Shown: piece after piece, positions 4,384-27,403 of the stretch | Layout of the letters: the number at the start of each line of letters is the position of its first letter | Position numbering within the stretch: position 1 is the stretch's first letter | NCBI RefSeq assembly: GCF_004570385.1 | Contig: NZ_SPQL01000009.1 | Coordinates: 124,001-188,000, forward strand | Length of the DNA: 64,000 nt | Origin: Blastococcus sp. CT_GayMR19 | GTDB taxonomy: Bacteria; Actinomycetota; Actinomycetes; Mycobacteriales; Geodermatophilaceae | Direction: 5' to 3' | Position numbers and translations under genes: made by a program | Notes under the pieces: generated by a model | Databases searched by the model: none | What the model saw: the letters and a program-made list of their open reading frames with translations, nothing else | Told to the model about the DNA's origin: nothing

Positions 4384-5355
4384 TCAGCGGGAGGGGTCGA
4401 GGACGAGCTTCCCGGTGGAGCGGCGGGCCAGCAGGTCCTGATGAGCCTCCCGGACGGCGGCCATCGGGTAGCGCCCGCCGACGACCGGCTTCAGCGCGCC
4501 CTCGGCGACCAGCGGGAGCAGTTCGCCCATGGCGGCGTCCAGCATCTGCGGCCGGGCCATGCAGTGCGCCAGCCAGAAGCCGATGACGGCGCGGCTCTTC
4601 TGCATCAGCGGGCCGACGTTGACGGGCTTGGGCTGCGTGCGGCCGGCCTGGCCGTAGGCGACGAGACGGCCGAACGGCGCGAGGGCCGAGAGCGACCCGT
4701 CGAAGACGTTCCCGCCGGTCATCTCCAGCACGATGTCGACCGGCTTGCCGCCGTTGGCCTCGCGCAGGGCGCCGGTGAACAGCTTCGGGTCGTCGGTGGC
4801 CAGCGCCGGGTCGACAGTGGCGTGGGCCCCGAGCTCTTCCGCCAGCGCCCGCTTCTCCGGGCTGGAGGCGGTGGCGATCACCCGTCCGGCGCCCCAGCGG
4901 CGGGCGAGCTGGACGGCGAGGCTGCCCACCCCGCCCGCGCCCGCGATGACGACGACCGACTCGCCCTCGGCCATGTGCGAGCTGGTCCTCAGCAGGTGCC
5001 AGGCGGTCGCGCCCTGGAGGACGACGGCGAGGGCCTGTTCGTCGCTCACGCCGTCGGGGACCGTCCAGGTGAGGAAGTCGTGGGCCACGACCTTCTGCGC
5101 GTAGCCGCCGCCGTCGAGCAGCCCGACCACCCGCCGGCCGCCGGCGACCGGGGTGCCGACGAACTCCGCGCCGGGGATCAGCGGCAGCTCCTGGGCCGAC
5201 AGGTAGCTGTTCTCGATCTGGTGGGTGTCGGCGTAGTTGATGCCGGCGGTGGAGACGTCGTAGAGCTGCTGCCCCTCGCCCGGGACGGGGTCAGGCAGGT
5301 CGACGACATCGAGGACTTCGGGTCCTCCGAACCGGGTGATCTGGACGGCTCGCAT
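4384..5355 (-). CDS. Quinone oxidoreductase family (zinc-free MDR) protein, intact copy
   Basis: A 323-aa medium-chain dehydrogenase/reductase of the NADPH:quinone reductase type. It has an N-terminal GroES-like fold (1-125) and a Rossmann domain with GAGGVG (139-144), and lacks the structural-zinc cysteines. Such cytoplasmic enzymes reduce quinones or enones with NADPH. A -10-like TAGGGT lies 7 nt before the ATG, which suggests a leaderless mRNA. The first ~45 codons of this gene family recur as three truncated fragments at 6690-6830, 9513-9649 and 11549-11685. This gene looks like the target or anchor of that array. Confidence 0.93.
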   Translation of the reverse strand: MRAVQITRFGGPEVLDVVDLPDPVPGEGQQLYDVSTAGINYADTHQIENSYLSAQELPLIPGAEFVGTPVAGGRRVVGLLDGGGYAQKVVAHDFLTWTVPDGVSDEQALAVVLQGATAWHLLRTSSHMAEGESVVVIAGAGGVGSLAVQLARRWGAGRVIATASSPEKRALAEELGAHATVDPALATDDPKLFTGALREANGGKPVDIVLEMTGGNVFDGSLSALAPFGRLVAYGQAGRTQPKPVNVGPLMQKSRAVIGFWLAHCMARPQMLDAAMGELLPLVAEGALKPVVGGRYPMAAVREAHQDLLARRSTGKLVLDPSR

Positions 5356-5720
5356 GCCAGCGACCCTAGGTCCTCGACGCTGACGGAACTTCCTGCCGCC
5401 CGGGCTCGAGTTCGAGGCTCGGCCGCTTGGTGCTCGCCTGCCCAGGCGATGAATCCAGGGAAGACCTGCTGCGGGGCTGCGCTCCGGCGTCCCTGCCGGC
5501 GATGCGACCTCGGTGCGACCAGGCGCCGAAAGCCGGCCCGGGGTAGCCCGCTGGGAGTTGGCGAGAAGGTCCGCAACCCGCTTCGGCAGGCGGGCAACAG
5601 CCCCCTGACGTGGTCGCGACGTCCCGCAGGTTGCGATACGCCTGCTGCCTCAGGGCGGGAGGCGTCGCGGCGTGGATCTGACTCAGTGCTTCCTCGAGAC
5701 GATGCGTGTTTCCCGCGACG
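5356..5720. other. Gene-free stretch between oxidoreductase and RibD-like gene
   Basis: No gene is recognised on either strand. The minus strand is partly open, but the translation has no recognisable domain. This may be a decayed coding remnant in the accessory region. Confidence 0.4.
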
Positions 5721-6326
5721 TCACGCAGGGGCTCCGAGCGGCGGGTGCTCGAGCACGCGTGGCTTGTACTCGACCAGCAGGATGCGGCCGTCGAACGTCC
5801 GGTGCTCGATCATCTCGAGGGCGACGTCCGGATAGCCGTCGTAGATGCGTTCTTCGCCCGTGGCCCCGGTGATCACCGGGAACATCCCGACCCGGAAGCG
5901 GTCGACGAGTCCGGCCTTCAGCAGGGACCGGCACAGGCTGAGGCTGCCGATCGTGCTGAGGAGCCCCGAGCCGTTCTGCTTCATGGCGCGGACGGCTTCG
6001 ACGGCGTCGTCGCGGACGAGCGTGGAGTTGGCCCACGCCAGTGGCTCCTCGAGCGAGGAGGAGAACACCACCTTGGACGCTTGGGTGAGCTCGTTGACGG
6101 ACGCCTCTTCCTCGGGCCTGAACTCCTCTTGGCCATTCGGGACCTCGCCCGCGGCGAAGCCCGACATCAGGCGGTAGGTGTTCGCTCCCATCAGGTAGGT
6201 GACCTCGGGCTGCTCGCCGAGCCAAGCGAGGTACTCCGGGCCCTCGAGGCCCCAGAACCCGGGCCAGCCCTCTCCCGATGCGTAGCCGTCGAGGGAGGTG
6301 ATGAAGTCGACAAGAAGCTCTGACAT
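5721..6326 (-). CDS. Dihydrofolate reductase-fold (RibD C-terminal) protein
   Basis: A 201-aa protein of the RibD_C/dihydrofolate reductase superfamily. It opens with LLVDFITSLDGYASG, the usual first strand and loop, and continues with the GANTYRLM segment and a C-terminal beta-rich half. Members reduce pteridine or ribityl-aminopyrimidine-like substrates with NADPH, but stand-alone small members such as this mostly have unknown substrates. It lies alone between the intact oxidoreductase gene and its first 5' fragment, so it may be cargo of the accessory array. A paralogue lies at 14379-14999. Confidence 0.85.
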   Translation of the reverse strand: MSELLVDFITSLDGYASGEGWPGFWGLEGPEYLAWLGEQPEVTYLMGANTYRLMSGFAAGEVPNGQEEFRPEEEASVNELTQASKVVFSSSLEEPLAWANSTLVRDDAVEAVRAMKQNGSGLLSTIGSLSLCRSLLKAGLVDRFRVGMFPVITGATGEERIYDGYPDVALEMIEHRTFDGRILLVEYKPRVLEHPPLGAPA

Positions 6327-6689
6327 GGTGGTGTCCGTTCCTAGGGTGTTACGAGCTGGGACCGGCCGGAAGCCACGAACTCATCGGCCGCGCTGCGGGG
6401 TAACGAGGAACCCATGACGCTGCAGCCGAGCGTCCCTGCTCGCCCGCGCCCAGCGCGCTGCTCCGAGCTGACCGATGCCCACCGGGCCACCCGACCCGTC
6501 GCCGGCTTCGGCGGCTTCCTCGACTACGCGAGTCACCAAGATCACCAAAGCGGCCAATACTCGCTCCCTGGACACGAGTCCGGACAGCGCAGGTGGGGCC
6601 AAGACTTCTTCCCACCTGCCGCAGAAGTCGGCCCCGGTGTCTTCGACGGGCGAACCGAGACGCGCGAGGTCGATCAGTGGCGTGTTCTG
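6327..6689. other. Gene-free stretch ending at the first oxidoreductase fragment
   Basis: No gene is supported here. Composition is less GC-biased than in neighbouring coding DNA and reading frames are short. The stretch ends exactly where similarity to the oxidoreductase 5' end begins. Confidence 0.4.
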
Positions 6690-6830
6690 TCAGTGGTAGG
6701 TGTCGGCGAAGTTGACGCCTGCGGTCGAGACGTCGTACAGCCGCTGGCCGTCACCCGGCGTCGGCTGGGGGACGTCGACGACATCGAGGACCTCGGGACC
6801 GCCGAAGCGGGTGATCTGCCCAGCGCGCAT
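6690..6830 (-). pseudogene. Quinone oxidoreductase 5' fragment 1
   Basis: The minus strand encodes MRAGQITRFGGPEVLDVVDV and continues to NFADTYH followed by TGA, 46 residues in all. It aligns without gaps to residues 1-46 of the intact oxidoreductase at 4384-5355. Similarity starts at the ATG (6828-6830) and stops at codon 45-46. The reading frame is intact, but no downstream part of the gene follows. It differs from the intact gene at many positions, so it is not a recent local duplicate. Confidence 0.85.
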
Positions 6831-7060
6831 AGGAGTGGGGCTGGGGGACGGCAGTGCCAGCCTCGTCCCGGACACCTGAGCCACCGGTCGCTGGCCGTCG
6901 GGGTCGGCCTCTGGTCGGAGGACGGCGAGGTCAGGTCGATCATGTTGTGCGACTGACGACCCGGCGGAATGCTTCCGCGTGGGAGCGGTTGACCCCTGGC
7001 GGCAGGCCACTGACCTGTCGGACGCCGAACACCCCCGACCCGATGAACCCGGAGCCCACC

Positions 7061-7849
7061 GTGCGCACGCGCCTGCCCCTGACCCTTGCCCTCGCCACCG
7101 CCCTGCTGCTGACGTCCTGCGGCGGGGGATCAGACGAGGCGGGAGGCGGCAGCGCGAGCGGCTCCGAGGACGTGCTGCGCGTCGGGACGGAGGGCACCTA
7201 CGCGCCCTTCACCTTCCACGACCCGAGCAGCAACGAACTGACCGGCTACGACGTCGAGGTCGCCGAGGCCGTCGGTGCGGAGCTCGGCATGGAGGTCGAG
7301 TTCAGCGAGACGCAGTTCGACGCGATCTTCGCCGGCCTCGAGGCCGACCGGTACGACGTCATCGCCAACCAGGTCACGATCAACCCCGAGCGTGAGGAGA
7401 AGTACCTGTTCTCTGCGCCCTACACCGTCTCGACCGGCGTCGTCATCACGCGGGCGGACGACGACAGCGTCACCTCGCTGGCCGACGTCAAGGGCAAGCG
7501 CAGCGCGCAGTCGACAACCAGCTCGTTCGCCGAGGTCGCCACCGAGGCCGGGGCGCAGGTCGAGGCCGTCGAGGGCTTCACCCAGGCCATCACGCTGCTC
7601 AAGCAGGAGCGCGTCGACGTCACGATCAACGACAGCCTCGCCTTCTTGGAGTACCAGAAGAGCACCGGCGACGAAGACGTGAAGATCGCCACCGAGATCG
7701 ACCAGCCGAGCGAGCAGGCGCTGGTCTTCCGCAAGGACAGCGCCGACCTCCAGGCCCGGGTGGACGAGGCCCTCGCGGCGCTGCGTGCCGACGGTGCGCT
7801 CGCCCGCATCTCCGAGAAGTACTTCGGTGAGGACGTCAGCGGGGAGTGA
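7061..7849 (+). CDS. Amino-acid (cystine-type) ABC transporter substrate-binding lipoprotein
   Basis: A 262-aa SBP_bac_3 family protein. A short hydrophobic signal peptide ends in the lipobox LLTSC (Cys20), so the protein is expected to be a lipid-anchored receptor outside the membrane. Motifs [21 protein letters not shown] and [16 protein letters not shown] resemble cystine binders (TcyA/TcyJ type). The GTG at 7061 is preferred because GGAG lies 6 nt upstream; an ATG at 7043 is an alternative. It is the first gene of a three-gene import operon, immediately right of oxidoreductase fragment 1. Ligand is inferred from family resemblance only. Confidence 0.9.
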
Positions 7850-8514
7850 GCGCGATCGACTGGGAGCTGGTCCGCAGCAGCCTGGGCCCGCTGTTCGACG
7901 GGCTCGTTCGCGGCACGCTGCCTCTCACCGCGGTGAGCTTCGTGCTGGGGCTGGCCATCGCCCTCGTGGTGGCGCTGATGCGGCTGTCGGGGCGGCGACT
8001 GGTGGCTGGGGTGGCCCGGGCCTACGTCTCGGTCATCCGCGGTACGCCGCTGCTGCTCCAGCTGTTCATCGTCTTCTACGGGCTGCCCTCGCTCGGGATC
8101 ACACTCGACCCGTGGCCGAGCGCAATCATCGCCTTGTCCCTCAATGTCGGGGGCTACGCCTCCGAGGCGGTGCGGGGAGCCATCCTCGCCGTGCCGCCCG
8201 GGCAGTGGGAGGCGGCGATGACCGTCGGGATGGGGCCGATCACGACGCTGCGCCGGGTGGTGCTGCCCCAAGCCGCGCGGATCGCCGTTCCGCCGCTGAG
8301 CAACACGCTCATCTCGCTGGTGAAGGACACCTCGCTCGTCTCGGTGGTCCTGGTCACCGAGCTGCTGCGCAGGGCCCAGGAGATCGCCGGGCAGAGCTTC
8401 GAGTTCTTCACGCTCTACGGCGTCGCCGCCGTCTACTACTGGGTGGTGTGCCTCGTGCTCTCCTTCGGTCAGACTCGGCTGGAGACCCGGCTGTCGCGGC
8501 ACGTGGCCGCATGA
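7846..8514 (+). CDS. Amino-acid ABC transporter permease
   Basis: A 222-aa HisM-type (polar amino acid uptake) permease with about five membrane helices. Its cytoplasmic EAA loop ([20 protein letters not shown]) couples to the ATPase. The GTG start overlaps the stop of the binding-protein gene by four bases, and its own stop overlaps the ATPase start, so the three products are probably made in concert. Only one permease gene is present, so a homodimeric channel is expected. Confidence 0.93.
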
Positions 8515-9266
8515 GCACCCCGCTGCTCGAGGCCCGCGGGCTCGTCAAGTCCTTCGGCGCCAACCGCGTGCTGCGCGGCGTCGACGTTGCGGTGCCGGCA
8601 GGGTCGGTCACGTGCCTCATCGGGCCGTCCGGCTCCGGCAAGACAACGGTGCTGCGCAGCCTCAACGGGCTGGAGACACCGGAGGCCGGCACGGTGCGGA
8701 TCGGGGACGTCGAGCTCGACTGGGCGACCCGGCCCGAGGCCCGCGCTGTGTCCCGGCTGCGAGGTCAGAGCGGAATGGTCTTCCAGGCTCACAACCTGTT
8801 CCCACACCTCACCGTGCTGGACAACGTGACCTCCGGGCCGGTGTTCGCGCATGGCCGGCCGCGTGCGGAGGCGCAGGAGGAGGCCCGGGCGCTGCTGACC
8901 CGTGTGGGTCTGTCCGACAAGGCGGACGCCTACCCGGTGCAGCTCTCGGGTGGGCAGCAGCAGCGCGTCGGCATCGCCCGCGCGCTGGCCACTCGGCCGG
9001 AGGTGGTGCTGTTCGACGAGCCGACCAGTGCCCTGGACCCCGAGCTGGTCGGCGAGGTGCTGCAGGTGATGCAGTCGCTGGCCGCAGAGGGCTGGACGAT
9101 GGTCGTGGTGACCCACGAGATGCGGTTCGCCCGGCAGGTGGCCGACCAGGTGCTCTTCCTCGACGGCGGCGTGGTCGTGGAGCATGGGCCGCCGTCGGAG
9201 GTGCTCGTCGAGCCGCGGGAGTCCCGCACCCGGCAGTTCTTGCATCGCCTGCTCGACCCCCTGTAG
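8511..9266 (+). CDS. Amino-acid ABC transporter ATP-binding protein
   Basis: A 251-aa ABC ATPase. It has Walker A GPSGSGKT (38-45), Q-loop [10 protein letters not shown], signature LSGGQQQR (144-151), Walker B with [10 protein letters not shown] (166-175) and the H-loop VTHEM. It is typical of GlnQ/TcyC-type uptake systems and energises import from the cytoplasmic face. The ATG start overlaps the permease stop (ATGA). About 250 bp without a gene separate it from the next oxidoreductase fragment. Confidence 0.95.
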
Positions 9267-9512
9267 CCACGACCGGCCTGGGCGCGTTGGAGCTGCGCGC
9301 CTCCAGGGCTTCGCGAGCGCCTGATGCCCGCAGGCGTCGAGAGCCGCCATCGCGATGTGCTCGAGGCATCGGACTGGGCTCGTTCGATCGGTGCCTTCTC
9401 GGACGTCGTCGCATGCGATCAGTGGGGCGTGAGGTTCCGCCGCGGTCGCCGCCTCGCGTCACTTCGGGGCTACGGCGGGGCTGCGCGGTGCATGTGAGTG
9501 TGACGACGGGGC

Positions 9513-9649
9513 GTGGTGCGTGTCGGCGTAGTTGGTACCGGCTGTCGACACCTCGTAGAGCTGCTGACCGGGACGGGCTCCGGCTCGGCGATGTCGACGA
9601 TCTCCAGGACCTCGGGACCGCCGAAGCGGGTGATCTGCACGGCACGCAT
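9513..9649 (-). pseudogene. Quinone oxidoreductase 5' fragment 2 (frameshifted)
   Basis: On the minus strand the ATG at 9649 begins MRAVQITRFGGPEVLEIVDI. A small deletion shifts the frame near codon 25, after which the next frame reads GQQLYEVSTAGTNYADTHH. Similarity ends at the same codon (45-46) as in fragments 1 and 3. The upstream flank keeps CAGGGT 6 nt before the ATG, matching TAGGGT of the intact gene, so the copied block appears to include the promoter -10 region. Confidence 0.85.
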
Positions 9650-9875
9650 CGCTCGACCCTGGTTCTGACCGTCGAGCAGAAGCTGGGTCCGGCAGCGTTG
9701 ACGATGGATCCCTCCGCCCGCCCGGGTCTCGGCGGAACTGTGCGGCGGGACGGGCCGGAGGATGGGCCGACAGAGACTGTCGGATGGTGTGTCGTCCGGT
9801 CGGACTGCGTGCGCCGGGCTACTGAAAGCTTCAGTCGCAAATGGGGTCTGCCTCTCGCATCTTCATCTGTCGCCG

Positions 9876-11366
9876 TCAGGTCGAGTGGCGCCAGCTCCGG
9901 CCGTCTCGGGCGATGAGCAGGTCCGCCTCCGGGGGGCCCCATGTGGCTGCCTGGTACAGGGGGATGGGCCGCCGGTCCATTGACCAGTACTGCATGACCG
10001 GGTCGACGATGCGCCAGGAGCGGCCGACCTCGTCGGCGCGGATGAAGAGGGTCGGATCGCCGATCAGTGCGTCCAGGATGACTCGCTCGTAGGCGTCCGG
10101 CGACTGCTCTTCGAAACTCTCGTACGAGAAGTCCATGGATGCCTTCTGCACCCGGAACGCATGTCCGGGGACCTTCGCCCCGAACCGCAGGCTCAGTCCC
10201 TCGTCGGGCTGCACGCGCACGATCAGGGCGTCGGGCTCCAGCCCCTCGGCCCTTCCGGGGAACAACGGAAGTTGTGGGGGGCGACGGAATTCCATGGCCA
10301 CCTCCGTGAGACGCGTGGGCAGCCGCTTGCCGGTGCGCACGTAGATGGGGACGCCGGTCCAGCGCCAGTTCTGGACCTCCAGTCGCATCGCCACGAACGT
10401 CTCGGTCGAGCTCAGCGGGTCGACGCCGGGCTCGTCCCGGTACCCGGGCATGAGGTCCTCGCGGGTGCCACCGCGGGTGTACTGCCCGCGCACCGCGTTC
10501 GTCGCGATCTCCGCCTCCTCGTCCAGCGGGCGGATCGCGCGGAGCAGTTTCACCTTCTCGTCGCGGATCGCCTCGGCGTGGAACGAGGTGGGCGGTTCCA
10601 TGAGGAAGAGCGAGAGGACCTGGAGGACGTGGTTCTGGACGATGTCGCGCATCGCGCCGGTCGTCTCGTAGAAACCGCCGCGGTCGCCGACGCCCAGTGT
10701 CTCGGCGACGGTGATCTGCACGTTGTCGACCCAGGTCCGGTTCCAGATCGGCTCGAAGATCGAGTTTGCGAACCGCAGCGCCAGCAGGTTCTGCACCGTC
10801 TCCTTCGCGAGGTAGTGGTCGATCCGGAATATCTGCTCCTCGACGAACGCCGAGGACAGTTCCGCGTAGAGATCCCGGGCGCTGTCCTCGTCCCAGCCGA
10901 ACGGCTTCTCGATGACCGCACGGACGAAGCCGTCGCCGTCCGGGACGGACAACCCCGCCTTGCCGAGGCTCACCGCGATCGGCCCGAACAGGCGGGGTGG
11001 CGTGGCGAAGTAGTACACCCGGTTGCCGGCGGTGCCGTGCCGCTGATCGCTGGCGGCCATCACCTCGGCCAGCCGCTGGTAGGTGGCCGGGTCGTCGTAG
11101 CCGCCGTGGACGTAGCGCGCAGCCTCGGTCAGGTCCTTCCACCGCTGGTCGCCCTCGCCGGACACGCTGCGCCGGCAGAGGTCCCCGAACTCGTCGTCGG
11201 TCATGGGCGTGCGGGCCACGCCGATCAGGGCGACCTCCGCGGGGAGGGCGCCGTAGCCGGCCAGCCGCGCGAGTGCCGGCAGGAGCTTGCGAGCGGTGAG
11301 GTCTCCCGAGGCTCCGAAGATAACCAGCGCACATGGCGGAGAGCGACGGTCCGCATCGACGTTCAT
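9876..11366 (-). CDS. zwf: Glucose-6-phosphate 1-dehydrogenase
   Basis: A 496-aa full-length enzyme that oxidises glucose 6-phosphate to 6-phosphogluconolactone with NADP+, the entry step of the oxidative pentose phosphate pathway. The cofactor motif GASGDL is at 18-23, EKPFG at 153-157 and the active-site motif RIDHYLAKE at 181-189 (consensus RIDHYLGKE). The ATG at 11366 fits family length; no clear Shine-Dalgarno is seen. It stands alone, not in the usual tal-zwf-opcA-pgl cluster. It is flanked on both sides by oxidoreductase 5' fragments, so it is probably an acquired second copy; that is inference. Confidence 0.94.
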   Translation of the reverse strand: MNVDADRRSPPCALVIFGASGDLTARKLLPALARLAGYGALPAEVALIGVARTPMTDDEFGDLCRRSVSGEGDQRWKDLTEAARYVHGGYDDPATYQRLAEVMAASDQRHGTAGNRVYYFATPPRLFGPIAVSLGKAGLSVPDGDGFVRAVIEKPFGWDEDSARDLYAELSSAFVEEQIFRIDHYLAKETVQNLLALRFANSIFEPIWNRTWVDNVQITVAETLGVGDRGGFYETTGAMRDIVQNHVLQVLSLFLMEPPTSFHAEAIRDEKVKLLRAIRPLDEEAEIATNAVRGQYTRGGTREDLMPGYRDEPGVDPLSSTETFVAMRLEVQNWRWTGVPIYVRTGKRLPTRLTEVAMEFRRPPQLPLFPGRAEGLEPDALIVRVQPDEGLSLRFGAKVPGHAFRVQKASMDFSYESFEEQSPDAYERVILDALIGDPTLFIRADEVGRSWRIVDPVMQYWSMDRRPIPLYQAATWGPPEADLLIARDGRSWRHST

Positions 11367-11548
11367 GTGCTGGGAGCATGCCCGGCTCGGAGTGCCACGG
11401 ACAGGCCCCGACACCGGCGTCCGTTGCGCGGCTGGACACGCACCGCGGTGTGTCGTGGCGACGTGGTGCCGCGCCCGGGAGGACGAGTGACGGCGACGCG
11501 GAGCGCGGACCGGCTCAGTTCTACGCGGTGTACCGCTCACGACAGGAA

Positions 11549-11685
11549 GTGGTGCGTGTCGGCGTAGTGGATGCCGGCTGGCGAGACCTCGTAGAGCTGC
11601 TGGCCGGGACCGGGCTCCGGCTCGCCGATGTCGACATCTCCAGGACCTCGGAACCGCCGAAGGGGGTGATCTGCACGGCACGCAT
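11549..11685 (-). pseudogene. Quinone oxidoreductase 5' fragment 3 (frameshifted)
   Basis: The minus strand starts MRAVQITPFGGSEVLE at 11685. A one-base deletion near codon 17 shifts the frame; corrected, the rest reads IGEPEPGPGQQLYEVSPAGI and then HYADTHH before similarity stops. The end point is the same codon as in fragments 1 and 2. Its sequence is closest to fragment 2. It is the rightmost fragment and may mark the outer edge of the accessory array. Confidence 0.85.
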
Positions 11686-11795
11686 GCGGGACAGGCCATG
11701 GCCTGCCGGGCAGCCGCGGCGGTGCCCGGGGCGTGCGCCGGGCGGCCCACCCTGGCGACCGGGCCGGTCGGCCGCGAAGCCTTTATGGTCCTCGG

Positions 11796-12944
11796 ATGCA
11801 ACTGAGCGCAGCGCTGGAACAGCACATCGCAGTGTTCGGCGAGAGCGGCAGCGGCAAGACCGTCCTGCTCTCCTCGTTCTACGGGGCCGCGCAAGAGCCT
11901 GCGTACTTGAAGGACAGCCTCTTCCACGTCGTCGCCGACGACATCGGCCAGGGGAGCCGGCTGCACAAGAACTACCTCGGGATGAAGAGCTCTGCGAGCG
12001 TGCCAGAGGCCAATCGCTTCCGGGCGACGTCCTACTCCCTCTCGGTCAAGATGAGGGCCGGGTCCGATCCGGAGGCGACGAGAGCTCAGCCCTTCAATGC
12101 ACTGCGCCTCGTCTGGCACGACTACCCGGGCGAGTGGTTCGAGGAGGACGTGAGCGGACCGGAAGAGGGGCAACGCCGAGTCGACACGTTCAGGTCTCTG
12201 CTGCGTTCGGACGTCGCCCTGCTGCTGGTGGATGCGCAGCGGATGCTGGACAACGCCGGCGAGGAGGAGCGCTACCTCAAGTCGTTGTTCGCCAACCTGA
12301 AGAACGGGCTCCTGAACCTCAAGGACGACCTGCTGGACGACGGACAGCCGCTCGTCGAGTTCCCGCGCATCTGGGTCCTGGCGCTGTCGAAATCCGACCT
12401 CCTGCCCGACCTCGACGTCTTCGGGTTCCGGGACCTCCTCGTCCTGAAGGCGTCCGACGAGATCACCGAGTTGCGCAACGTCATCGCGGAGATGGTGGAG
12501 GGCAGCGACGCGCTGTCGGTCGGGGAGGACTTCGCGCTGCTCTCGTCGGCGAAATTCGAGGTGGGCAAGATCGAAGTCACCGAGCGGATCGGTCTTGACC
12601 TGCTCCTGCCGCTGGCCGCGATGCTCCCCATCGAGCGACACATCGACTGGACCCAGACGCAGCAGCTGCCGGGGAGGGTGGCGGAGAGCCTGCTGGGCGG
12701 CATCGGCCCTGTGGTGGATGTGCTGTTCAAGCGTCTGTCCAGTTTGCCGGGAAAGCTCGGCATCTTCTTCGGTACTGCCGGTCCCAGCCTGCAACTCGTG
12801 GCTCAGCTGGCCGGAGACAAGCTGAAGGAGATGAACGACGAGGCGCGCGCGAAGGGGGACAACCTCAAGGCCACGTTGACCGGCTTCCGGCTCGACCTCG
12901 AAGGAGGCGAGGAGCGGGGAATCTTCCTCAGGAGCCTGCGATGA
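11796..12944 (+). CDS. P-loop (TRAFAC-type) GTPase-like protein
   Basis: A 382-aa protein with an N-terminal P-loop GESGSGKT (15-22), a switch-like WHDYPGEW segment (107-114, resembling G3 DxPG) and a possible G4 motif SKSD (198-201). The C-terminal third is hydrophobic and helix-rich, perhaps a membrane-associating region. This matches the TRAFAC-clade or double-GTPase-like proteins found next to bacterial conflict genes, but the assignment rests on motifs only. TATGGT lies 6 nt before the ATG, so the message is probably leaderless. The next gene overlaps it by four bases. Base composition is less GC-skewed than in neighbours. Confidence 0.75.
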   Translation: MQLSAALEQHIAVFGESGSGKTVLLSSFYGAAQEPAYLKDSLFHVVADDIGQGSRLHKNYLGMKSSASVPEANRFRATSYSLSVKMRAGSDPEATRAQPFNALRLVWHDYPGEWFEEDVSGPEEGQRRVDTFRSLLRSDVALLLVDAQRMLDNAGEEERYLKSLFANLKNGLLNLKDDLLDDGQPLVEFPRIWVLALSKSDLLPDLDVFGFRDLLVLKASDEITELRNVIAEMVEGSDALSVGEDFALLSSAKFEVGKIEVTERIGLDLLLPLAAMLPIERHIDWTQTQQLPGRVAESLLGGIGPVVDVLFKRLSSLPGKLGIFFGTAGPSLQLVAQLAGDKLKEMNDEARAKGDNLKATLTGFRLDLEGGEERGIFLRSLR

Positions 12945-13303
12945 CCCTGATCTGGGCCACGCGTGGACGGACCTGGGGCTTCCGGTTCCTCCGGGACGGA
13001 GGGATCGAGGAGCCGCTCCGGGTCTACGACATCGCCTTCTCGGGCGTCGAGGAGGACTCGGAGGTCTGGCGCCCTATCACCGGCACGAGGGAACAACGCG
13101 AGATGGTGGCGCTGCGGTTGCCGGATCCGTTGGGGCGGCAGGACCGCGCCGGAAGGGTGATCCCGCACGACTTCGTCGTCCTGCCACCACTGGCTGACGA
13201 GATCGATTCGGTCGAGGACGGTCGCCACAGGATCTGGCCCCTCGTTGCCGATCAGTTCGAGCGCGTCTGGGAGCTGTCGGAACCGCCCTCTCCCACAGAC
13301 TGA
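12941..13303 (+). CDS. Hypothetical partner of the P-loop GTPase
   Basis: A 120-aa protein with no recognised domain. It is rich in charged and aromatic residues (for example TRGRTWGFRFLRDGG near the N-terminus) and has no signal peptide or membrane helix. Its ATG overlaps the GTPase stop (ATGA), implying coupled synthesis and probably a shared function. It could be an effector or adaptor of the GTPase. Function unknown. Confidence 0.75.
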   Translation: MTLIWATRGRTWGFRFLRDGGIEEPLRVYDIAFSGVEEDSEVWRPITGTREQREMVALRLPDPLGRQDRAGRVIPHDFVVLPPLADEIDSVEDGRHRIWPLVADQFERVWELSEPPSPTD

Positions 13304-13493
13304 CCTCAGCGGATCGGCCCACGGCACGTGAATCGGAGGACGGCCACGTCGTGGTGTGTCCACCTGACACCCGGTCCCCGCAGCAGCGCACGGTCCGAGG
13401 CATGAACGAGTTCTCTCATTTGCGCCCTGCCCCGGAGCCCCGGCCAGAGTTGCCCTCGACACGGTGGTCACCACACCCACCAGATTCCTGGTC

Positions 13494-13521
13494 TTGACTC
13501 ATGCCGATATGGGTATACGTT
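13494..13521 (+). promoter_or_regulatory. Promoter of the ArsR-SRPBCC-RibD operon
   Basis: TTGACT (13494-13499) and TACGTT (13516-13521) are separated by 16 bp. The GTG start lies 6 nt after the -10, which predicts a leaderless mRNA. GTATAC at 13513-13518 overlaps the -10 and could be part of an operator for the repressor encoded immediately downstream. Confidence 0.6.
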
Positions 13522-13527
13522 GGCGCC

Positions 13528-13869
13528 GTGGCACGAGCAGCGACGACGTCGGACGTCTTCAACGCGATCGCCGAGCCGCAGCGCCGGGAGATCCTCGTGC
13601 TGCTGCGGGCGGGTGAGCGACCGGTGACCGAGTTGGCCCGGGAGATGGGGATGACTCAGCCAGGGGCGTCCAAACACCTGCGGGTGCTCCGGGAGGTCGG
13701 GCTCGTGCGGGACCGCAAGGCAGGCAAGCAGCGCCTGTACGGCCTCGATGCCCGCGGGCTGCGGCCGGTTCACGAGTGGACCGGCGGGTTCGAGCGGTTC
13801 TGGAACGAGAGCTTCGACCGGCTGGACGCGTACGTGCAGGACCTCGAGCAGGCACGGCAGGAGGAGTAG
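13528..13869 (+). CDS. ArsR-family winged-helix transcriptional regulator
   Basis: A 113-aa ArsR/SmtB-type regulator. Residues DVFNAIAEPQRREILVLL start the helical core, and TELAREMGMTQPGASKHLRVL forms the recognition helix-turn-helix. It lacks the classic metal-binding CVC motif. Members that precede SRPBCC genes, as here, commonly repress their own operon in response to an unknown ligand. GTG at 13528 is chosen over the ATG at 13501 because the latter would lie inside the promoter. Confidence 0.9.
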   Translation: MARAATTSDVFNAIAEPQRREILVLLRAGERPVTELAREMGMTQPGASKHLRVLREVGLVRDRKAGKQRLYGLDARGLRPVHEWTGGFERFWNESFDRLDAYVQDLEQARQEE

Positions 13870-13872
13870 CTC

Positions 13873-14379
13873 ATGAGCGCCACGGGACGAGGAGCGCCGG
13901 CGCAGTCCGCGACGGCCGGCCGCGAGATCGTGATCTCGCGGGTCATCGGCGCCCTACGGGAGCTGGTGTTCGAGGCGTTCACCGAGGTCCGGCACCTGTC
14001 GCGGTGGTGGGGGCCGGACGGGTTCACCACCACCACGCGGTCCTTCGAGTTCCGCGTCGGCGGGGAGTGGGACTTCGTGATGCACGGGCCGGACGGGACG
14101 GACTACCAGGAATGGATCTCCTGGACCGAGATCGTCCCGCCGGAGCGGATCGCGCTGCTGCACGGTGAGTTCCGCGGCGACCCGAACGCCTTCGAGTCGG
14201 TCCTGACGTTCGAGCCCGACGGGGCGGCGACCCGGATCGACATGCGCACGGTGTTCCCCACCAGGGAGTTGCGCGACGAGGCGGTCGAGAAGTACCACGC
14301 GATCGAGGGTGGCCGGCAGACCCTGGGCAACCTGGCTGCCTACGTCACCGAGATCCATCGGCAGGGAGGCGAGGGCTGA
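13873..14379 (+). CDS. SRPBCC / AHSA1-type domain protein
   Basis: A 168-aa START-like (SRPBCC, activator of Hsp90 ATPase homologue 1) protein. The signature WWGPDGFTTTTRSFEFRVGG is followed by WEFVMHGPDG-like sequence (here WDFVMHGPDG) and the C-terminal helix. The fold binds hydrophobic ligands; the ligand is unknown. It follows the regulator by 3 bp, and its TGA shares a base with the next ATG, so it is part of a three-gene operon. Confidence 0.9.
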   Translation: MSATGRGAPAQSATAGREIVISRVIGALRELVFEAFTEVRHLSRWWGPDGFTTTTRSFEFRVGGEWDFVMHGPDGTDYQEWISWTEIVPPERIALLHGEFRGDPNAFESVLTFEPDGAATRIDMRTVFPTRELRDEAVEKYHAIEGGRQTLGNLAAYVTEIHRQGGEG

Positions 14380-14999
14380 TGGCCGGGAAGGTGTTCTTCA
14401 GCGTGTCCATGTCGCTGGACGGGTTCATCGCGCCCGGGTCCCTCGGGGAGTTGATGGGGCGGCAGTGGATGGAACTGCAGCGGTGGGTCTTCCCGACGCG
14501 GTTCTTCCGGGAGAACCTGAAGCTCGGCGGGGGTGGCGAGGAGGGGCGCGACAACGACATCGTGCGGACGACGTTCGAGCGCACCGGCGCGAGCGTGATG
14601 GGCAAGCGCATGTTCGACGCCGGCGAGCAGATGTGGCCGGAGGAGGCGCCCTTCCACACGCCGGTCTTCGTCGTGACGCACGAGAAGCGTGACCCCTGGG
14701 AGCGGCCGGGCGGGACCACCTTCCACTTCGTCAACGACGGCATCGAGGCCGCGCTCGACCGGGCCCGCGAGGCCGCCGGCGACCGCGACGTCCGCATCGC
14801 GGGCGGCGGCGCGACGATCCTGGAGTACGTGAACGCCGGCCTGATCGACGAGTTCTCGATCGCTCTGTCGCCCGTGCTGTTCGGCTCCGGAATCCGCCTG
14901 TTCGAGGGCGTTGACGCGGACCGCGTGGCCCTCGAGCAGGTCCGCGCGGAGCCCTCCCCGAGGGTGACGCACCTGACCTACGCCGTCCGGAAGCGGTAG
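14379..14999 (+). CDS. Dihydrofolate reductase-fold (RibD C-terminal) protein
   Basis: A 206-aa RibD_C/dihydrofolate reductase-like protein. SVSMSLDGFIAPG forms the N-terminal strand, VMGKRMFD the middle motif, and GGGATILEYVNAGLIDEF the NADPH-site region. It is the last gene of the ArsR-SRPBCC operon (TGATG overlap). Similar operons are common in actinobacteria, but the reaction is unknown. A diverged paralogue is at 5721-6326. Confidence 0.9.
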   Translation: MAGKVFFSVSMSLDGFIAPGSLGELMGRQWMELQRWVFPTRFFRENLKLGGGGEEGRDNDIVRTTFERTGASVMGKRMFDAGEQMWPEEAPFHTPVFVVTHEKRDPWERPGGTTFHFVNDGIEAALDRAREAAGDRDVRIAGGGATILEYVNAGLIDEFSIALSPVLFGSGIRLFEGVDADRVALEQVRAEPSPRVTHLTYAVRKR

Positions 15000-15028
15000 G
15001 CGGACGGCGGAGAACGAGCCCCGCATCG

Positions 15029-15083
15029 TGAGCCGAGTCAGGGATCAACCGACGAGGTGCGCACCCGCCTGAGCCGAGTCAGG
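15029..15083. promoter_or_regulatory. Two CRP/FNR-like palindromes upstream of hemerythrin gene
   Basis: TGAGCCGAGTCAGG occurs at 15029-15042 and 15070-15083. Start positions are 41 bp apart, about four helical turns. Each has the TGA-N6-TCA core of CRP/FNR-family sites; the second extends to CCTGA-N6-TCAGG. Placement ~90-150 bp before the hemerythrin start suggests an operator pair. The regulator is not identified. Confidence 0.45.
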
Positions 15084-15175
15084 TATGAGGTGGATCTGCA
15101 AGCGGGCTGCAAGCCGGATGCACGGGGTGGGGTCGATCGTCGTGCTGACGACCCGCCGCAGCCGAGGAGACAGCC

Positions 15176-15844
15176 ATGCACGCCACGACCGGACCGATCG
15201 ACACCAGCGTGATGCCGACCATCCACACCTTCTTCCGTCGTGAGATCCGGCTGGCCGGGGGCGTCGTCCGTCGCGTCGCCGACGGTGACGTGCGCCGGGC
15301 CGGGGTGGTCGCCGACCATCTCGACTTCGTCGCACGGTCGCTGCACGAGCACCACACCGGCGAGGACGAGCTCCTGTGGCCGAAGCTGCTGGAACGCGTG
15401 CCCGAGGAGCTCGCCCCCATCGTGCGGCTGATGGAGGCTCAGCACGGGCAGGTCGACGCGCTGCTCAGCGAGATCGGCGATGTCCGCGTGCGCTGGGCGG
15501 CGACGGCGGCCCCGGCCGACCGCGACCGGCTGGCCGACCTGTTCGACCAGCTGTACGTGCACCTTGCCGAGCACTTGGACGCGGAGGAGGAGCGGCTGCT
15601 GCCGATCGCGGCCCGAGCCGTCACGCAGGCCGAGTGGGCGGAGCTGGGGGAGCGCGGCCGCGCGCGCACCCGGCGATCGGAGCTGTCGCTGGCCCTGGGC
15701 ATGTTCCAGTACGAGGGCGATCCCGCCGTGATCGCGCAGATGCTCGCGGAGGCTCCCGCGCCGGTCCGGTGGATCGTGCCGCGGCTGTCCCGCCGGGCTT
15801 TCCGGCGGCGCGCGCTCGCCATCCACGGCACCGCCACGCCCTGA
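15176..15844 (+). CDS. Hemerythrin-like (HHE) domain protein
   Basis: A 222-aa protein with an N-terminal four-helix hemerythrin-like domain (about 12-150). Expected di-iron ligands occur in HTFFRRE, LHEHHTGEDELLWP, EAQHGQ and HLAEHLDAEEERLLP. Such proteins bind O2, NO or iron, or act in redox sensing. The last ~70 residues are basic and may form a small extra domain. It is followed after 10 bp by the convergent BTAD regulator gene. A second, interrupted hemerythrin gene is at 28687-29322. Confidence 0.88.
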   Translation: MHATTGPIDTSVMPTIHTFFRREIRLAGGVVRRVADGDVRRAGVVADHLDFVARSLHEHHTGEDELLWPKLLERVPEELAPIVRLMEAQHGQVDALLSEIGDVRVRWAATAAPADRDRLADLFDQLYVHLAEHLDAEEERLLPIAARAVTQAEWAELGERGRARTRRSELSLALGMFQYEGDPAVIAQMLAEAPAPVRWIVPRLSRRAFRRRALAIHGTATP

Positions 15845-15854
15845 GGAACGGGAC

Positions 15855-18800
15855 TCAGTCCGGCAACCGTGCCAGCAAGGCCTCGGTGCGGGCCGTCCAC
15901 GGTTCCAGCCCGAGGGACCGGTGCGTGTCCAGTGCGGTGCGGGCGTGCGCCCGGGCGGCGACCGGGTCGCCGTCGGCGGCAGCCAGCCGCGCCAGGGTGT
16001 GGGAGACGCTGCCGAGGAAGAGGGCGGACAGGCCGCCGGAGGCCAGCCGGTCGGCGTAGGGGGTGAGCTGCCGACGGAGATCGGCGACCGCGTCGTCGGT
16101 GGCGAGGCCGCGGTCGGCGAACTCGAGCCACAGCCAGGCGCGCAACACGGTGAGGCTGATCCACAGGTAGTCGCGGATCACCGCCGGCTGCTCGCCCCAC
16201 GGACCGAGCATCCGGCGTGCCTCCTCCGCCCGCCCCGCCTCGACCAGGGCCATGGCGTGCAGGTCGCGCAACTCGCTCGGCTGGTAGGCGGCGGCCTGCC
16301 GGAGGACGGGCTCCAGCTCGCCCAGCCGCCCCTGCACCCACCGGATCGTGGTCCGCTGTGCCAGCCCGATGCCGACGCCCGGGGTGGCCAGCGTGTGCTC
16401 GAGCCGCTCCAGCCGGTCGATGTCCTCCTCGGCGCCGGCGAGGTCGCCGTGGACCTGCCGGAGCAGCGCCAGCCCCCAGCCGGAGACGAGCAGCACCTGC
16501 GGGAGCGAGTGCCGCTCGGCAAGCTGCTGCGCGCGGACCAGATCGGAGTGTGCCTCCTCCAGGCGTCCCGCCTCGGCCCGGATGCCGGCCCGCTGCGTGA
16601 GGGCGCGGGCGCCCGCGCATTCGTCGCCGGCCCGCGCGGCGCGTTCGACCAGCTCCTCGGCGAGCGCGGCGCGGCGGTGCAGCAGATCGGTCCGGGCGAT
16701 CGCCAGCGCGGCGAGCTGCAGCACGGCCCCCATGTCCTGGGGCCCGGCGTCCGTGGTCCGCAGCCGCGCGACGGCGGAGTCGATCAGCCGGAGGCTGGTG
16801 TCGGCCCCGTCGGGGCGGGACAGGTGCTCGACCGCCAGCGCCGCCTCGACGCGGGCGCGCAGGGCAGCGGTCAGGGCGCCGTCCCGGCAGGCGAGCACCT
16901 CGTTCCAGAGGTCGATGGCGGCGTGGTCGACCTGGGCCCGCGTCCGCCATCCCCAGACCGCACTGTGGGTGATCTCCAGCAGGATCCGTGCGGCGGCAGC
17001 CGGGTCGGAGCGGCGCAACGCCGACGTCCCGGCGGTGGCGAACTCCGGCCAGGCGTCGATGGGCCGGCCGAGTCGTAGCAGCGCCCGGCCGCGTCCCACC
17101 CGCACGGACTCGCGCTCCTCCGGGCTGGTCAGCGGGTCCCGTTCCTGCAGCTCGACGGCGAGGGTGAACAGACGGAGCGCCTCCGCGTGCGCCGAGCGGG
17201 TGGCGGCCGATTCCCCGGCCCGTCGCGCGAAGGTCCAGCCCGACCGGGCGTGGGCGGTGCCGGCCAGCCGGTAGTGCTCGGCGAGCTCTGCCGCGTGGTC
17301 GGGAATCCGGCCGGCGTGTGCGTCCTCCAGCGCGGTGGCGACGAGGAGGTGCGTGCGGGCACGGGCCGGCGCCGGCAGCATCTCGTAGACCGCGTCACGT
17401 ACCAGGGAGTGCGTGAACCGGTAGCGGCCGGGCGCCGGCTCGTCGACGAGCCCCAGCGCGATCGCGGATGCCAGCGCCTCGTCCACGTCGACCGGGGAGC
17501 AGGCGGCCGCCTGCTCCACGACGGCCGGCTCGAAGGACCGCCCGGCCACCGCGGCCACCGCGAGGATCTGCGAGGTCGCGTCCGGGAGCCCGGCCAGGCG
17601 CTGCCGGACGACGTCCCGCACGCCGGAGGGCACCGTGCGCCACACCGAGGAGTCCGGCCGGGCCAGCGCTCCCTCGCTCGCCAGCAGGCGCGCCACCTCG
17701 GTCACGAAGAACGGGTTCCCGTCCGTCCGGGCGACGAGCTCTGTCGCGATCTCCGGAGAGATCTCCACCCCGGTGGAGACCGCCACGCAGGAGACGATCG
17801 CGGCCTCGTCGAGGCCGGCCAGATCGATCCGCAGCGGGTCCAGCCGGGCCAGAGCGCCCAGCAGGTCCGCCAGCGAGCCGTCCGCATCGGCGGGGGAGTT
17901 GCGCAGGGCGACGACGAGGACGACCGGGACGTCGGCGACGTCGGCGGCCACCCGGCGGATCAGTCGCAGGCTGTCCGCGTCGGCCCAGTGGACGTCGTCC
18001 AGGACGAGCAGCACGGGTGGGCCCGAACCGACCGCGGTGAGCAGCGTCTCGGCGAGCCGGTAGCTCTCCGATGCGGCGTCCCGCACCCCGCCCTCCGTGG
18101 CAGCGAGGGCCTGGTCGCTGCCGAAGACGGCGCGGGCGGCCCTGGTCCAGCCCCACAGCGGCGGGCTGCCGTCGGGGTCCCAGGTGCCTCGACCGCAGCG
18201 GAAGCCGGCCGCTCTCGCCCGGCCCAGCACCTCCTCGGCGAACCGCGTCTTGCCGATGCCGGGCTCACCGCGGATCACGACGGTGCGGCCTCGGCACCGG
18301 GCCGCTGCGGCGAGGACGTCGTCGACCGCCGCCAGCTCCCGTGCCCGTCCGGCGAGCCCGGCATCGGTGGACGGCGCCCGCGGCCCGGCGGAATGTCGTT
18401 CGGTGGCGGGCCGGTCGGCCAGGCGGGGGAGCAGACCGGGGTCCTGCCGCAGGATCGACTCCTCCAGGGCCCGCAGGTCCGGCCCCGGGTCGATGCCGAG
18501 CTCCTCGGCCAGGTGGTCGCGGGCCCGTCGCAGGCTCGCCAGCGCGTCGGCCTGCCGGCCGGCGCGGTACTGCGCGCGGGCGAGCAGCCCCCACAGCCGT
18601 TCCCGTGCGGGATGCTGCCGCACCAGTTGCTCCAGCTATGCCGCGGCCGTGCGGTCGTCCCGCGCCGTGCGGACCTCCCAGAGATCCTCCAGGGCGGTCA
18701 ACCGCAGTTCTGTGAGCCGGAGCGCCTCGGCAGCCAGTGACGTGCTGGTCTCGGTCAGCCCGGCGTAGGGGTCCCCCCGCCACAGCGCCAGCGCCTCCTC

Positions 18801-19196
18801 GAGCGAAGCCTCCGCCCGGGCCGGGCCGGCGGCCACGTCGGAGCGCGCACGGCGGATCAGCTCGGTGAACCGGCGCGCGTCGACGTGCTCGGCCGCCAGG
18901 GCGAGGGAATAGCCGCCGGGATGCGTGCGCAGCCGGTCGTCCGTGGCGCGCGCCCGCCGGGCCGGCTCCAGCTCCCGGCGGAGGCGGGCGACGTAGGACT
19001 GCAGCGACGCCTCGACCCGGGCCGGCGGCTGCTCGCCCCAGATCTGGTCGACCAGGTGGGACACCGACACCGGCCTGCCCTCAGCGGCGACGAGCAGCGC
19101 GAGCAGTGCCCGTGGCTTGGGCCCACCGAGGTCGGCGGACGCCCCGTCCACCTCCACCGCCAGCTCGCCGAAGACCCGGACCTTCACGGGGCGCAT
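15855..19196 (-). pseudogene. BTAD/AAA-type transcriptional activator interrupted by one in-frame TAG
   Basis: The minus strand encodes a SARP-like regulator: winged helix (codons 1-95, MRPVKVRVFGELAVEVDG), BTAD helical domain, AAA ATPase with GEPGIGKT, and a long helical-repeat C-terminus. Codon 187 is TAG (18636-18638), in the BTAD domain between RTAAA and LEQLV. Both sides are in the same frame and otherwise intact (186 codons before, 926 after). A single CAG-to-TAG or GAG-to-TAG change would explain it. Internal restart at GTG 18623 could make an ATPase without the DNA-binding domain. It is most simply a recent pseudogene, but readthrough or sequencing error is possible. Confidence 0.85.
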
Positions 19197-19234
19197 GCTA
19201 AACGCGACGGGGCGCGACCGGGACCGAGAGCAGC

Positions 19235-19265
19235 AGGCGGCGCCCGGGCATCCCGGGCGCCGCCT
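19235..19265 (-). terminator. Strong hairpin between membrane-protein gene and BTAD gene
   Basis: A perfect 14-bp stem (arm AGGCGGCGCCCGGG) with a 3-nt loop lies just after the stop of the minus-strand membrane gene and ahead of the BTAD gene. There is no T-tract, as is usual in actinobacteria. Confidence 0.75.
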
Positions 19266-19289
19266 GGTCGGTGGGAGGAGTGCGGGCGG

Positions 19290-19979
19290 TCAGCCGACGG
19301 ATGCGAGCTCCTGGGGAGCGGCGGTCTTCTCGGCACGCGCGCCGGTCGCGGCGGTACCGAGCGCCCACAGGGCCAGCAGCACGCCCGCGACCGCGAACAG
19401 CGGCGTGAACTCGGTGTCGGGCGACAGGAAGGTCAGCGGCACCACGACGGCGTGCGCCAGCCCGCCCACGACGCCGAGCAGGGCCACGACGCGGCGCAGG
19501 CCGCCCTGGATCCTGGCCAGCGTCGTGGCGAGGTACACGACGGCCAGACCGCTGACGGGGTACAGCACGGCGGCGAGCCCCAGGTGGGTGAAGGCGACCG
19601 GGGCGGCGTGGCCGGCGTCCAGTGCGTGGCTGTCGACCACGGCGGCGAGGTGGAAGACCGTCTCGACCGCGTAGAGGGAGAGGGCCACGACGGCGACGGC
19701 GAGGGGCCGTCCGGCCGCCTGGGGCCAGACCTGCCGGCGGCGGGCCATCCACAGGCCGACGACGAGGAGCACGGTGCCGATCACGACCAGCGTGTGCCCG
19801 GGCACCCACATCTCGTCGGCGGTCATCGTCGCCAGCTCCTCGCGCATCGAACCCGAAGCGTCGGAGTCGGGGTGCATGGGGCCGCCGGCGAGCAGCGTGG
19901 CTCCGGACGCGAGCAGGGCCAACCGCCAGCCCTGCGGCCGGCGAGGAGCGGGGGTCTGGGTGTTCGGGGAGGTCGTCAT
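19290..19979 (-). CDS. Membrane protein of unknown function
   Basis: A 229-aa protein with about six predicted membrane helices separated by short loops, starting after a short Thr/Pro-rich N-terminus. A periplasmic-type loop after helix 1 holds GPMHPDSDASGSMREELA. The ATG at 19979 is used because upstream codons are low-complexity. The family is not recognised with confidence; it resembles uncharacterised actinobacterial membrane proteins. A strong hairpin follows the stop. Confidence 0.75.
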   Translation of the reverse strand: MTTSPNTQTPAPRRPQGWRLALLASGATLLAGGPMHPDSDASGSMREELATMTADEMWVPGHTLVVIGTVLLVVGLWMARRRQVWPQAAGRPLAVAVVALSLYAVETVFHLAAVVDSHALDAGHAAPVAFTHLGLAAVLYPVSGLAVVYLATTLARIQGGLRRVVALLGVVGGLAHAVVVPLTFLSPDTEFTPLFAVAGVLLALWALGTAATGARAEKTAAPQELASVG

Positions 19980-20405
19980 GGCCGCAACGCTGGCGGCAGG
20001 GACTTGCAACCTGCTGGACGACCTCTGGACTCCGGGCGCAAGGCGCCGCATGTCGGCGCGGCCCGTGGCCAGCGCCCGGTCGGCGCTCGTGAACCGCTGA
20101 GACCGGCACGGCCGACTATCAGGAACATGACAACCTCCACCCACGCAGGAGCGTCGGGGTCCACTCGGGTGACCTGGACAGCGCGTACGCCCCGAGGCCC
20201 GCGTCCGGGAGCCCCCGGTTCGGTGCCGACGGTTGGCACCGGACGCGCGCGGTGGGGAGGCGGCGGGCGGTCTGCGCATCCCTCACCAAGGTGGCGAGGG
20301 TCGACACCTCGTGAGGCCGTCGATCACCCCTGCAGTGACTGTTCCGGCCTCTCGCCGGAGGCGACCCTGATCGTGACGGATCCCCCGGACACCCAGAGGT
20401 TCCAC
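19980..20405. other. Gene-free divergent spacer before the kinase gene
   Basis: The spacer between the minus-strand membrane gene and the plus-strand kinase gene has no supported ORF. Inverted arms GCGTCCGG (20201-20208) and CCGGACGC (20239-20246) enclose the shorter pair CGGTGCC/GGCACCG, so a structured RNA leader is possible. A ~23-bp stretch at 20166-20188 resembles the oxidoreductase start but is too short to assign. Confidence 0.4.
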
Positions 20406-23087: not shown

Positions 23088-23183
23088 CCCCGGCTGAGAC
23101 CAGATCTCTGCCGCAGGCACCTCAACTCACGTGACTTGGACGGCGCACACCGCCGGTCACTACGCCCACAATGCCTGCCTGAC

Positions 23184-24281: not shown

Positions 24282-24359
24282 CCCGCCAGTGTCCCGCCAT
24301 GGGAGCGACGACCCCCGGCCGGGCCCGAGGCCGACTACCGGACCAGGGCGCCACCGTGC

Positions 24360-24696: not shown

Positions 24697-26607
<1,911 letters not shown>

Positions 26608-26611
26608 GGGC

Positions 26612-27388: not shown

Positions 27389-27403
27389 CGTCCCCCGAAT
27401 GAT

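Follow-up and report, generated by a model that had tools for sequence, protein, structure and literature searches.

A quinone oxidoreductase gene as a probable attachment site for stacked mobile cassettes in the Geodermatophilaceae

We analysed a window of 64,000 nucleotides from Blastococcus sp. CT_GayMR19 (Geodermatophilaceae; contig NZ_SPQL01000009.1, positions 124,001 to 188,000), in which an intact quinone oxidoreductase gene, here called qor, is accompanied on its 5′ side by further copies of its first 137 bp. Comparison with related genomes makes it very probable that qor is the attachment site of mobile cassettes moved by a large serine recombinase, each carrying its own qor 5′ end, in arrays that grow inward. 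The arrays have a common right border and a conserved arm behind it, empty and filled sites occur in the family, cassettes shared between genomes are bordered by a short core, and their order is shuffled.

In the window, qor occupies 4384..5355 on the minus strand, as delimited by a whole-gene search and alignment. Searching the genome against itself with this 972-bp gene found three orphan copies of bases 1-137 upstream of the intact gene and on the same strand, with identities of 80, 77, and 76% (E values of 5e-29, 4e-25, and 4e-21). All three stop directly after GACACNNACCA, at codon 45/46, and an alignment of the four ends thus bears out an earlier note on this DNA, which had described three 5′-only copies in one orientation with a common end. 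The alignment, the own-genome search, and a profile of the 137-bp block place the orphans at 6694..6830, 9514..9649, and 11550..11685 (all minus strand); the frame of the first is open and the second and third are frameshifted, in keeping with the two frameshifts that the note had counted. The current 5′ block of the intact gene, from start codon to break point, was located by alignment and profile at 5219..5355 (minus strand), with the core CACCA at 5219-5223. Behind orphans 2 and 3 stands an element arm, CGCCCCGTCGTCACACTCACATG (9489..9513) and CTTCCTGTCGTGAGCGGTACACCG (11525..11549), and the corresponding place after orphan 1 (6669..6693, beginning CTGACAGAACACGCC; all on the minus strand) matches the arm consensus poorly.

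These blocks delimit three cassettes. Cassette 1 (5219..6693, minus strand, 1475 bp) consists of the 5′ block and a RibD_C-domain gene (5721-6326, minus strand), and its gene region at 5698-6479 has a 90% identical counterpart in another genome, G012, where it lies upstream of the outer orphan. Cassette 2 (6694..9513, plus strand, 2820 bp) joins its block to an ATP-binding cassette (ABC) transporter operon (7043-9266, plus strand) and has an 84% identical counterpart in the Goekera genome G024, the shared stretch stopping one base beyond the core. Cassette 3 (9514..11549, minus strand, 2036 bp) joins its block to a gene at 9876-11366 (minus strand) that we take, as did the earlier note, to be zwf-like.

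The same anatomy recurs in the 45 stretches that were read. The block profile gave 113 rows at E ≤ 0.01, and 103 of them reach position 130 (66 orphans and 37 intact genes). As this cut selects blocks that reach the break point, each stretch was also searched with the full intact gene: 58 of 67 orphan matches end at bases 132-141, 50 of them exactly at 137, and none ends later. Orientation is uniform among the blocks of each stretch, with no mixed case, and the intact gene is the innermost block wherever a stretch includes it. The core CACCA is present in 55 of the 66 orphans and 35 of the 37 intact genes. Behind it the orphans share an arm conserved from about +1 to +24, with the majority consensus CCGGCTGTCGTNNNACNNACCTGA and two flavours, such as CCGGCTGTCGTGAGACCTACCTGAG and CCGGCTGTCGTCCAACTGACCTGA; in intact genes the core is followed by codons that specify Q(I/T)E(N/D)SYL or a similar peptide. 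The consensus of the left half-site, CGCCGGCGTCAACTTCGCCGACACCCACCA, is identical in orphans and intact genes, no difference between the two having been found, and a partial dyad, GACA/TGTC, read by eye, flanks the core. The block frame is open in all 37 intact genes and in 42 of 60 full-length orphans, and 34 of 37 and 34 of 60, respectively, have a putative -10-like motif, TA[ACG]NNT, immediately ahead of the start codon. At codon 41 of the intact genes, TTT serves for 7 of 21 Phe codons, against none of the 187 Phe codons elsewhere in 33 genes (Fisher p 4e-8, indicative only since the sequences are related). Because TTT is kept at this codon and absent from the others, the DNA adjoining the core seems to be constrained beyond its coding role.

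Such blocks are common in the family. The 5′ 137 bp of qor matched at E ≤ 1e-10 in 99 of 112 family genomes, and the search for orphan 5′ fragments in relatives that the earlier note had proposed gave two or more block matches in 56 of them, three or more in 31, and four or more in 23; long arrays are undercounted here because the best 7 candidates per genome were scored. As a control, the 5′ 137 bp of a neighbouring gene (window 3365-3501) gave one match in 100 of the 112 genomes and two in none. Between consecutive cores we delimited 57 cassettes in 20 stretches, with a core-to-core length of 0.36-12.3 kb (median 3.7 kb), and the array of G104, with nine full blocks counting the intact gene, is the longest. 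An order-wide search (298 genomes, best 2 candidates each) found a second block match outside the family in five genomes (G032, G138, G163, G192, and G338), mostly partial, and arrays may therefore exist outside the family.

Comparison of empty and filled sites shows insertion. G019 had one block match in the family search, and relative to this empty site G071 has an insert of 1201 bp and G087 one of 2233 bp, both including a second block. Upstream of the G019 block (-700..-200), the sequence is 91% identical to what flanks the outer orphan of G071 and G087, but only 42 and 37% identical to what flanks their intact gene; downstream (0..800), it is 91% (G071) and 89% (G087) to the intact gene, against about 42% to the orphan side. 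Since the left flank of G019 matches the orphan and its right part the intact gene, these 1201 and 2233 bp entered qor. The intact 5′ end of G071 corresponds in turn to the outer orphan of G069 (94% identity upstream), behind which lies a further insert of 2225 bp. These comparisons support the model of the earlier note, in which successive integrations at the 5′ part of the gene each bring a new 5′ end and push the old one outward.

Whole cassettes are also shared between genomes. A 5.9-kb cassette of G104 and G106 is 96.1% identical over 6056 bp, from core to core with the left block included, whereas beyond its borders identity falls to 34% left of the block and to 43 and 32% past the right core. 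A second cassette is common to both genomes over 2.06 kb and differs in its right part; it lies inside the 5.9-kb cassette in G104 and outside it in G106, so that the order of the two is swapped.

Recombinase families were sought as PF00589 in 29 genomes, PF00239 in 17, and PF07508 in 112. Inside the 57 cassettes there was no match to PF07508 or PF00239, and none to PF00589 among the matches listed. Among these same matches, the contig of the window held none of the three families, and the earlier note was right in seeing no integrase here. A tyrosine integrase was considered as the array enzyme and rejected, none being found at array coordinates among the matches listed. The note had also advised looking for a recombinase elsewhere, and relatives appear to hold a large serine recombinase at or near the qor site. 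Two proteins match PF07508 and PF00239; they are 92% identical to each other and combine Resolvase, Recombinase, and Zn_ribbon_recom domains. Both are encoded on array contigs, one in G002 and one in the Goekera genome G024, in the part that runs from the innermost orphan to the end of the contig, at 45 and 102 kb from that orphan. These contig ends seem to join the contigs bearing the intact gene, as suggested by an 80-bp exact overlap in G002 and a shared tandem repeat in G024; in G002, a partial block (positions 2-86, E 7e-6) lies between the enzyme and the intact gene. The large enzyme-bearing elements have an arm of the same kind as the recombinase-less cassettes (CCGGCTGTCTGCCAACTGACTTGAC in G002, CCGCCTGTCGTCCAACTGACCTGAC in G024), which fits movement in trans.

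Homologues of this enzyme at E ≤ 1e-60 were found in 4 of 298 order genomes (G024 92%, G038 55%, G193 44%, and G068 38% identity), and four genomes including the query G002 hold one of at least 55% identity (G002, G024, G038, and G056). In G038, an Actinokineospora, only about 20 bp separate an orphan qor 5′ block from the start of the recombinase gene behind it; the 3′ part of qor lies on another contig with foreign sequence before it, and CACAAC is found at codon 45/46 in each of the two junctions. In the congener G228, where qor is undisturbed, the block is 85% identical to the G038 orphan and the next 600 bp are 81% identical to the 3′ part, and upstream of the block identity is only 38%. 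We infer that the two G038 contigs carry the two ends of one element. The homologue of G056 (Blastococcus sp. CCUG 61487), 92% identical, lies near a contig end reading CACCA, a position that lends weak support to an enzyme at the site. No qor was found near the G068 homologue. Judged from these sequences, the array enzyme is likely a large serine recombinase. Close relatives of the integrase at E ≤ 1e-85 were found in 1 of 394 class genomes, that of the query itself, and an alignment of the integrase searched against viral contigs gave one distant match of 25% identity.

In two other genomes, homologues of 42-44% identity were seen beside parts of a gene that we take to be ssb-like (L067:7504-8420; L073:9700-10030, 20300-20620). 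In Micromonospora globbae (L073), the homologue lies behind an ssb-like 5′ fragment with the remainder of the gene 9 kb on, and in G193 it adjoins the ssb-like 3′ part; such homologues may have a similar lifestyle with a different target. A conserved protein of about 400 residues is encoded near the recombinase in G002, G024, and G056 (L062:7299-8522, L061:13127-14338, and L071:3446-4654), and the G002 copy, the one tested, had no Pfam match.

In the mechanism that we propose, the large serine recombinase would recombine qor with a cassette in circular form, at the point where the CACCA core ends (codon 45/46). The cassette would have the ~24-bp arm at its start and its own qor promoter and first 45 codons at its end; once inserted, its 5′ end would stand in frame with the host 3′ part, qor would remain open, and the old 5′ end would become the outer orphan. 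The left half of the new junction would again be qor coding sequence, so that the target would be rebuilt, the next cassette could enter at the same point, and the array would grow inward. That the target can be rebuilt, and stacking is possible, is suggested by the left half-site consensus, which is equal in orphans and intact genes, and this regeneration may be the reason for the long arrays. The fixed right border and the conserved arm argue for a crossover at the core and not elsewhere within the 137-bp block, and homologous recombination between blocks may contribute shuffling. Cassettes without a recombinase would be moved in trans by enzyme-carrying helper elements, in the manner of cis-mobilizable elements. 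By this model, the intact qor of the window would be chimeric, its 5′ end brought by a cassette and its 3′ part belonging to the host. For 33 of the 37 intact genes we also asked whether pairwise identity changes stepwise at codon 46, as a sign of chimerism. It was 0.78-0.79 at bases 46-135 and 0.84 at 136-180, but as low, 0.77, at 271-315, and correlating with the remainder of the gene (0.30, compared with 0.45 and 0.36) was not decisive either; we do not rely on this test.

Several observations weigh against this mechanism. Nine of the 67 orphan matches end early, at bases 42-117, and the 10 of 113 profile rows that end before position 130 were excluded from the orphan counts; these may be truncated blocks, and six of them have E below 1e-7. 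In all three empty/filled pairs, the 137-bp block is closer to the block of the intact gene than to that of the orphan (0.927/0.876, 0.905/0.869, and 0.949/0.934), which may be due to decay of the orphans, and the pairs leave the position of the crossover inside the block unplaced. Fifty-five of 112 genomes are without a PF07508 match, and G011, which has 7 full blocks, is one of these. About 7 kb separate the enzyme from the next block in both G002 and G024, a distance that spans the inferred contig joints and is measured to the partial block in the former and to C49:4897 in the latter. The ends of the Actinokineospora element are on two contigs, and the element supplies no new 5′ end, so that qor is broken there. 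Viral contigs gave no attP-like pattern, and phage and plasmid records gave no qor 5′ end or N-terminus. Immediately downstream of qor in G018 lies an 81% identical copy of the cassette 2 ABC operon (L057:8894-11234); as this copy adjoins qor, the operon may have been picked up locally, and some cargo may come from near qor. Finally, classical serine integrases are not known to accept attR as their target, and for this reason we put forward target regeneration as a hypothesis only.

It is scarcely credible that the orphans arose by tandem duplication of qor and that each copy then decayed on its own. Their divergence, the broken frames of some, and the nine matches ending before the common point would agree with decay, but the single break point of the other 58, with none beyond it, would not, nor would the shared non-qor arm behind that point, the unrelated cargo in between, the empty/filled pairs, and the cassettes common to several genomes with borders at the core. 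Full-length paralogues with differing break points, by which the earlier note would have recognised such decay, were not seen.

Quite unlikely, in our judgement, is the entry of circular DNA by a homologous single crossover at the 137-bp block without any site-specific enzyme. The blocks are sufficiently alike for it, a single crossover would likewise duplicate the block, the unplaced crossover of the empty/filled pairs allows it, and it could account for shuffling and for composite cassettes such as the second one of G104 and G106 with its differing right part. It leaves unexplained a block end fixed to one base, the conserved ~24-bp arm, the AT-rich codons beside the core, and a serine recombinase at the same codon in Actinokineospora. 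It is also unlikely that the arrays are site-specific and built by a recombinase other than the large serine recombinase seen near qor in a few genomes. The half of the genomes lacking PF07508 proteins, the two arm flavours, and the ~7 kb between enzyme and block in G002 and G024 would suit another enzyme. Against this, the large serine recombinase directly adjoins the qor block at the same codon in Actinokineospora, its homologues of at least 55% identity stand at a qor block (G038), on array contigs (G002 and G024), and at a contig end reading CACCA (G056), and the large elements that bear it share the arm of the cassettes.

The array in the window continues past the three orphans. The ancestral upstream neighbours of qor, divergent from it, lie at 25915..28575 (plus strand) and are presumably fabG, a fabI-like gene, and a ferrochelatase-like gene. 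The distance from fabG to qor is 20,560 bp in the window, compared with 125 bp in G004 of the same genus; in other families the genes are divergent and 37 bp (G032) or 74 bp (G040) apart. The spacing in the window and in G004 gives an inserted interval of about 20 kb, of which the orphans cover the inner third. Beyond what the earlier note had described, two stretches are common to the arrays of other genomes. Cassette 4 (11550..13290) matches 1.74 kb of a 1.82-kb cassette adjoining the intact gene in G066 (73%), its inner end falling precisely at the core and its outer border being unrecognisable in the window. Cassette 5 (13493..15002, plus strand) shares 91% identity with a portion of one G106 array cassette, is without a block in the window, and carries genes that we take to be ArsR-like, AHSA1-like, and RibD_C-like. 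The remaining interval up to the ancestral neighbour spans 15003..25840, and a sensitive scan found no block at E < 1e-4 in 11701-40000 of the window. In G008, G010, and G017, 4.3-5.3 kb separates fabG from a single qor block, and these intervals are probably older inserts that lost their orphans. Elsewhere in the genome of the window, a 47-bp remnant of the block (query 87-136, 86%) lies just behind the end of an open frame at G000:C14:366998-367044 (L005:1501-1547); it stops at the core, is followed by CTGACTGCCGG, and may be a decayed or secondary site.

Parts of this design are known from other systems. The integrases of dusA islands and of SXT/R391 elements are of the tyrosine type. An integron holds a cassette array at one platform; the qor arrays differ in having no IntI-type enzyme (PF00589) within them among the matches listed, and their repeats are coding 5′ ends. 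Staphylococcal cassette chromosome elements have serine recombinases, ccr-less members, and a gene end as target, which is the 3′ end of rlmH and not a 5′ end as in the qor arrays.

The dusA islands insert near the start of a coding gene and substitute new sequence of their own for its 5′ end; a remnant of the old end stays, and putative promoters are found before and after integration (PMC4482086, Farrugia et al. 2015). Like the qor cassettes, they bring a new 5′ coding end and a putative promoter, a supply that the Actinokineospora element lacks; their target gene is another one, the word “tandem” is absent from that paper, and the integrase carries the name of the islands and is found with them, whereas the 57 qor cassettes are without a recombinase match. 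The Dehalococcoides islands at ssrA have a CcrB-like serine recombinase and form tandem islands bounded by gene fragments, with diverse cargo; some lack the integration module and sixteen have it, and accretion is invoked (PMC3146451). They use the 3′ part of the tmRNA gene with 20-bp repeats, while the repeat of the qor arrays is a promoter plus 45 codons. Cis-mobilizable elements (CIMEs) have lost integration and transfer genes but kept attL and attR, are stacked via attR, and can be moved by a helper (reviewed in PMC5704250). The 57 qor cassettes resemble them in keeping cores and arms without a listed recombinase match, one being carried by the large elements of G002 and G024. As described in the review, CIMEs are decayed tandem members alongside integrative and conjugative or integrative and mobilizable elements, whereas at qor the recombinase-less state is the rule, with up to nine full blocks and a family-wide spread. 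SXT/R391 elements also use a 5′ end, that of prfC, and form tandem arrays (PMC2786100), but they are conjugative elements of about 100 kb with a conserved integrase, unlike the qor cassettes. The statement of the earlier note that no system of exactly this form had been described therefore needs dividing: 5′-end replacement and tandem accretion are known, and, as far as these sources reach, what appears to be new are long recombinase-less arrays at a coding 5′ end. Among the top-ranked titles and abstract openings of the open-access literature, qor was not described as an integration site, and no paper joined serine recombinase, quinone oxidoreductase, attB, and integration site.

From a biological perspective, qor would be a cassette-collecting hotspot for a bacterial family, at which the reading frame of the target is kept and metabolic, transport, regulatory, and some defence-like cargo is gathered. 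One could see in it a serine-recombinase analogue of the integron, in which recombinase-less cassettes, moved in trans by rare helpers, stack at qor as a permanent platform that stays open, the coding left half-site of each cassette rebuilds the target, and promoter and N-terminus are exchanged with each insertion; we judge this reading somewhat less likely than not. The arrays raise the question of whether a serine recombinase can rebuild its own target so that integrations stack, something that textbook attP x attB chemistry is not known to allow. The elements also suggest a possible route by which a mobile element went from breaking its target gene, as in Actinokineospora, to carrying a spare 5′ end, and a recombinase with a defined target could be of use for actinobacterial genetics.

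The cargo was scanned in 183 of 190 called proteins of at least 80 residues from the 20 stretches, 7 proteins crossing stretch ends being excluded, and the survey covers the 25 commonest families per set. Among these are alpha/beta hydrolases, short-chain dehydrogenases, transporters of the major facilitator superfamily and ABC types, regulators, and a few genes that look defence-like. PycC models are matched by two proteins of one set; in the other set, two match RmrA models and two match PDC-S44 models. A Goekera cassette (L049:6848-8904) encodes a PycTM protein (Pfam) adjoining two Pycsar-cyclase-like proteins, and this pair probably represents the two PycC-matching members. Upstream of qor in G002, a HerA-like ATPase (Pfam) is encoded together with a methylase-like neighbour (L063:11428-15630).

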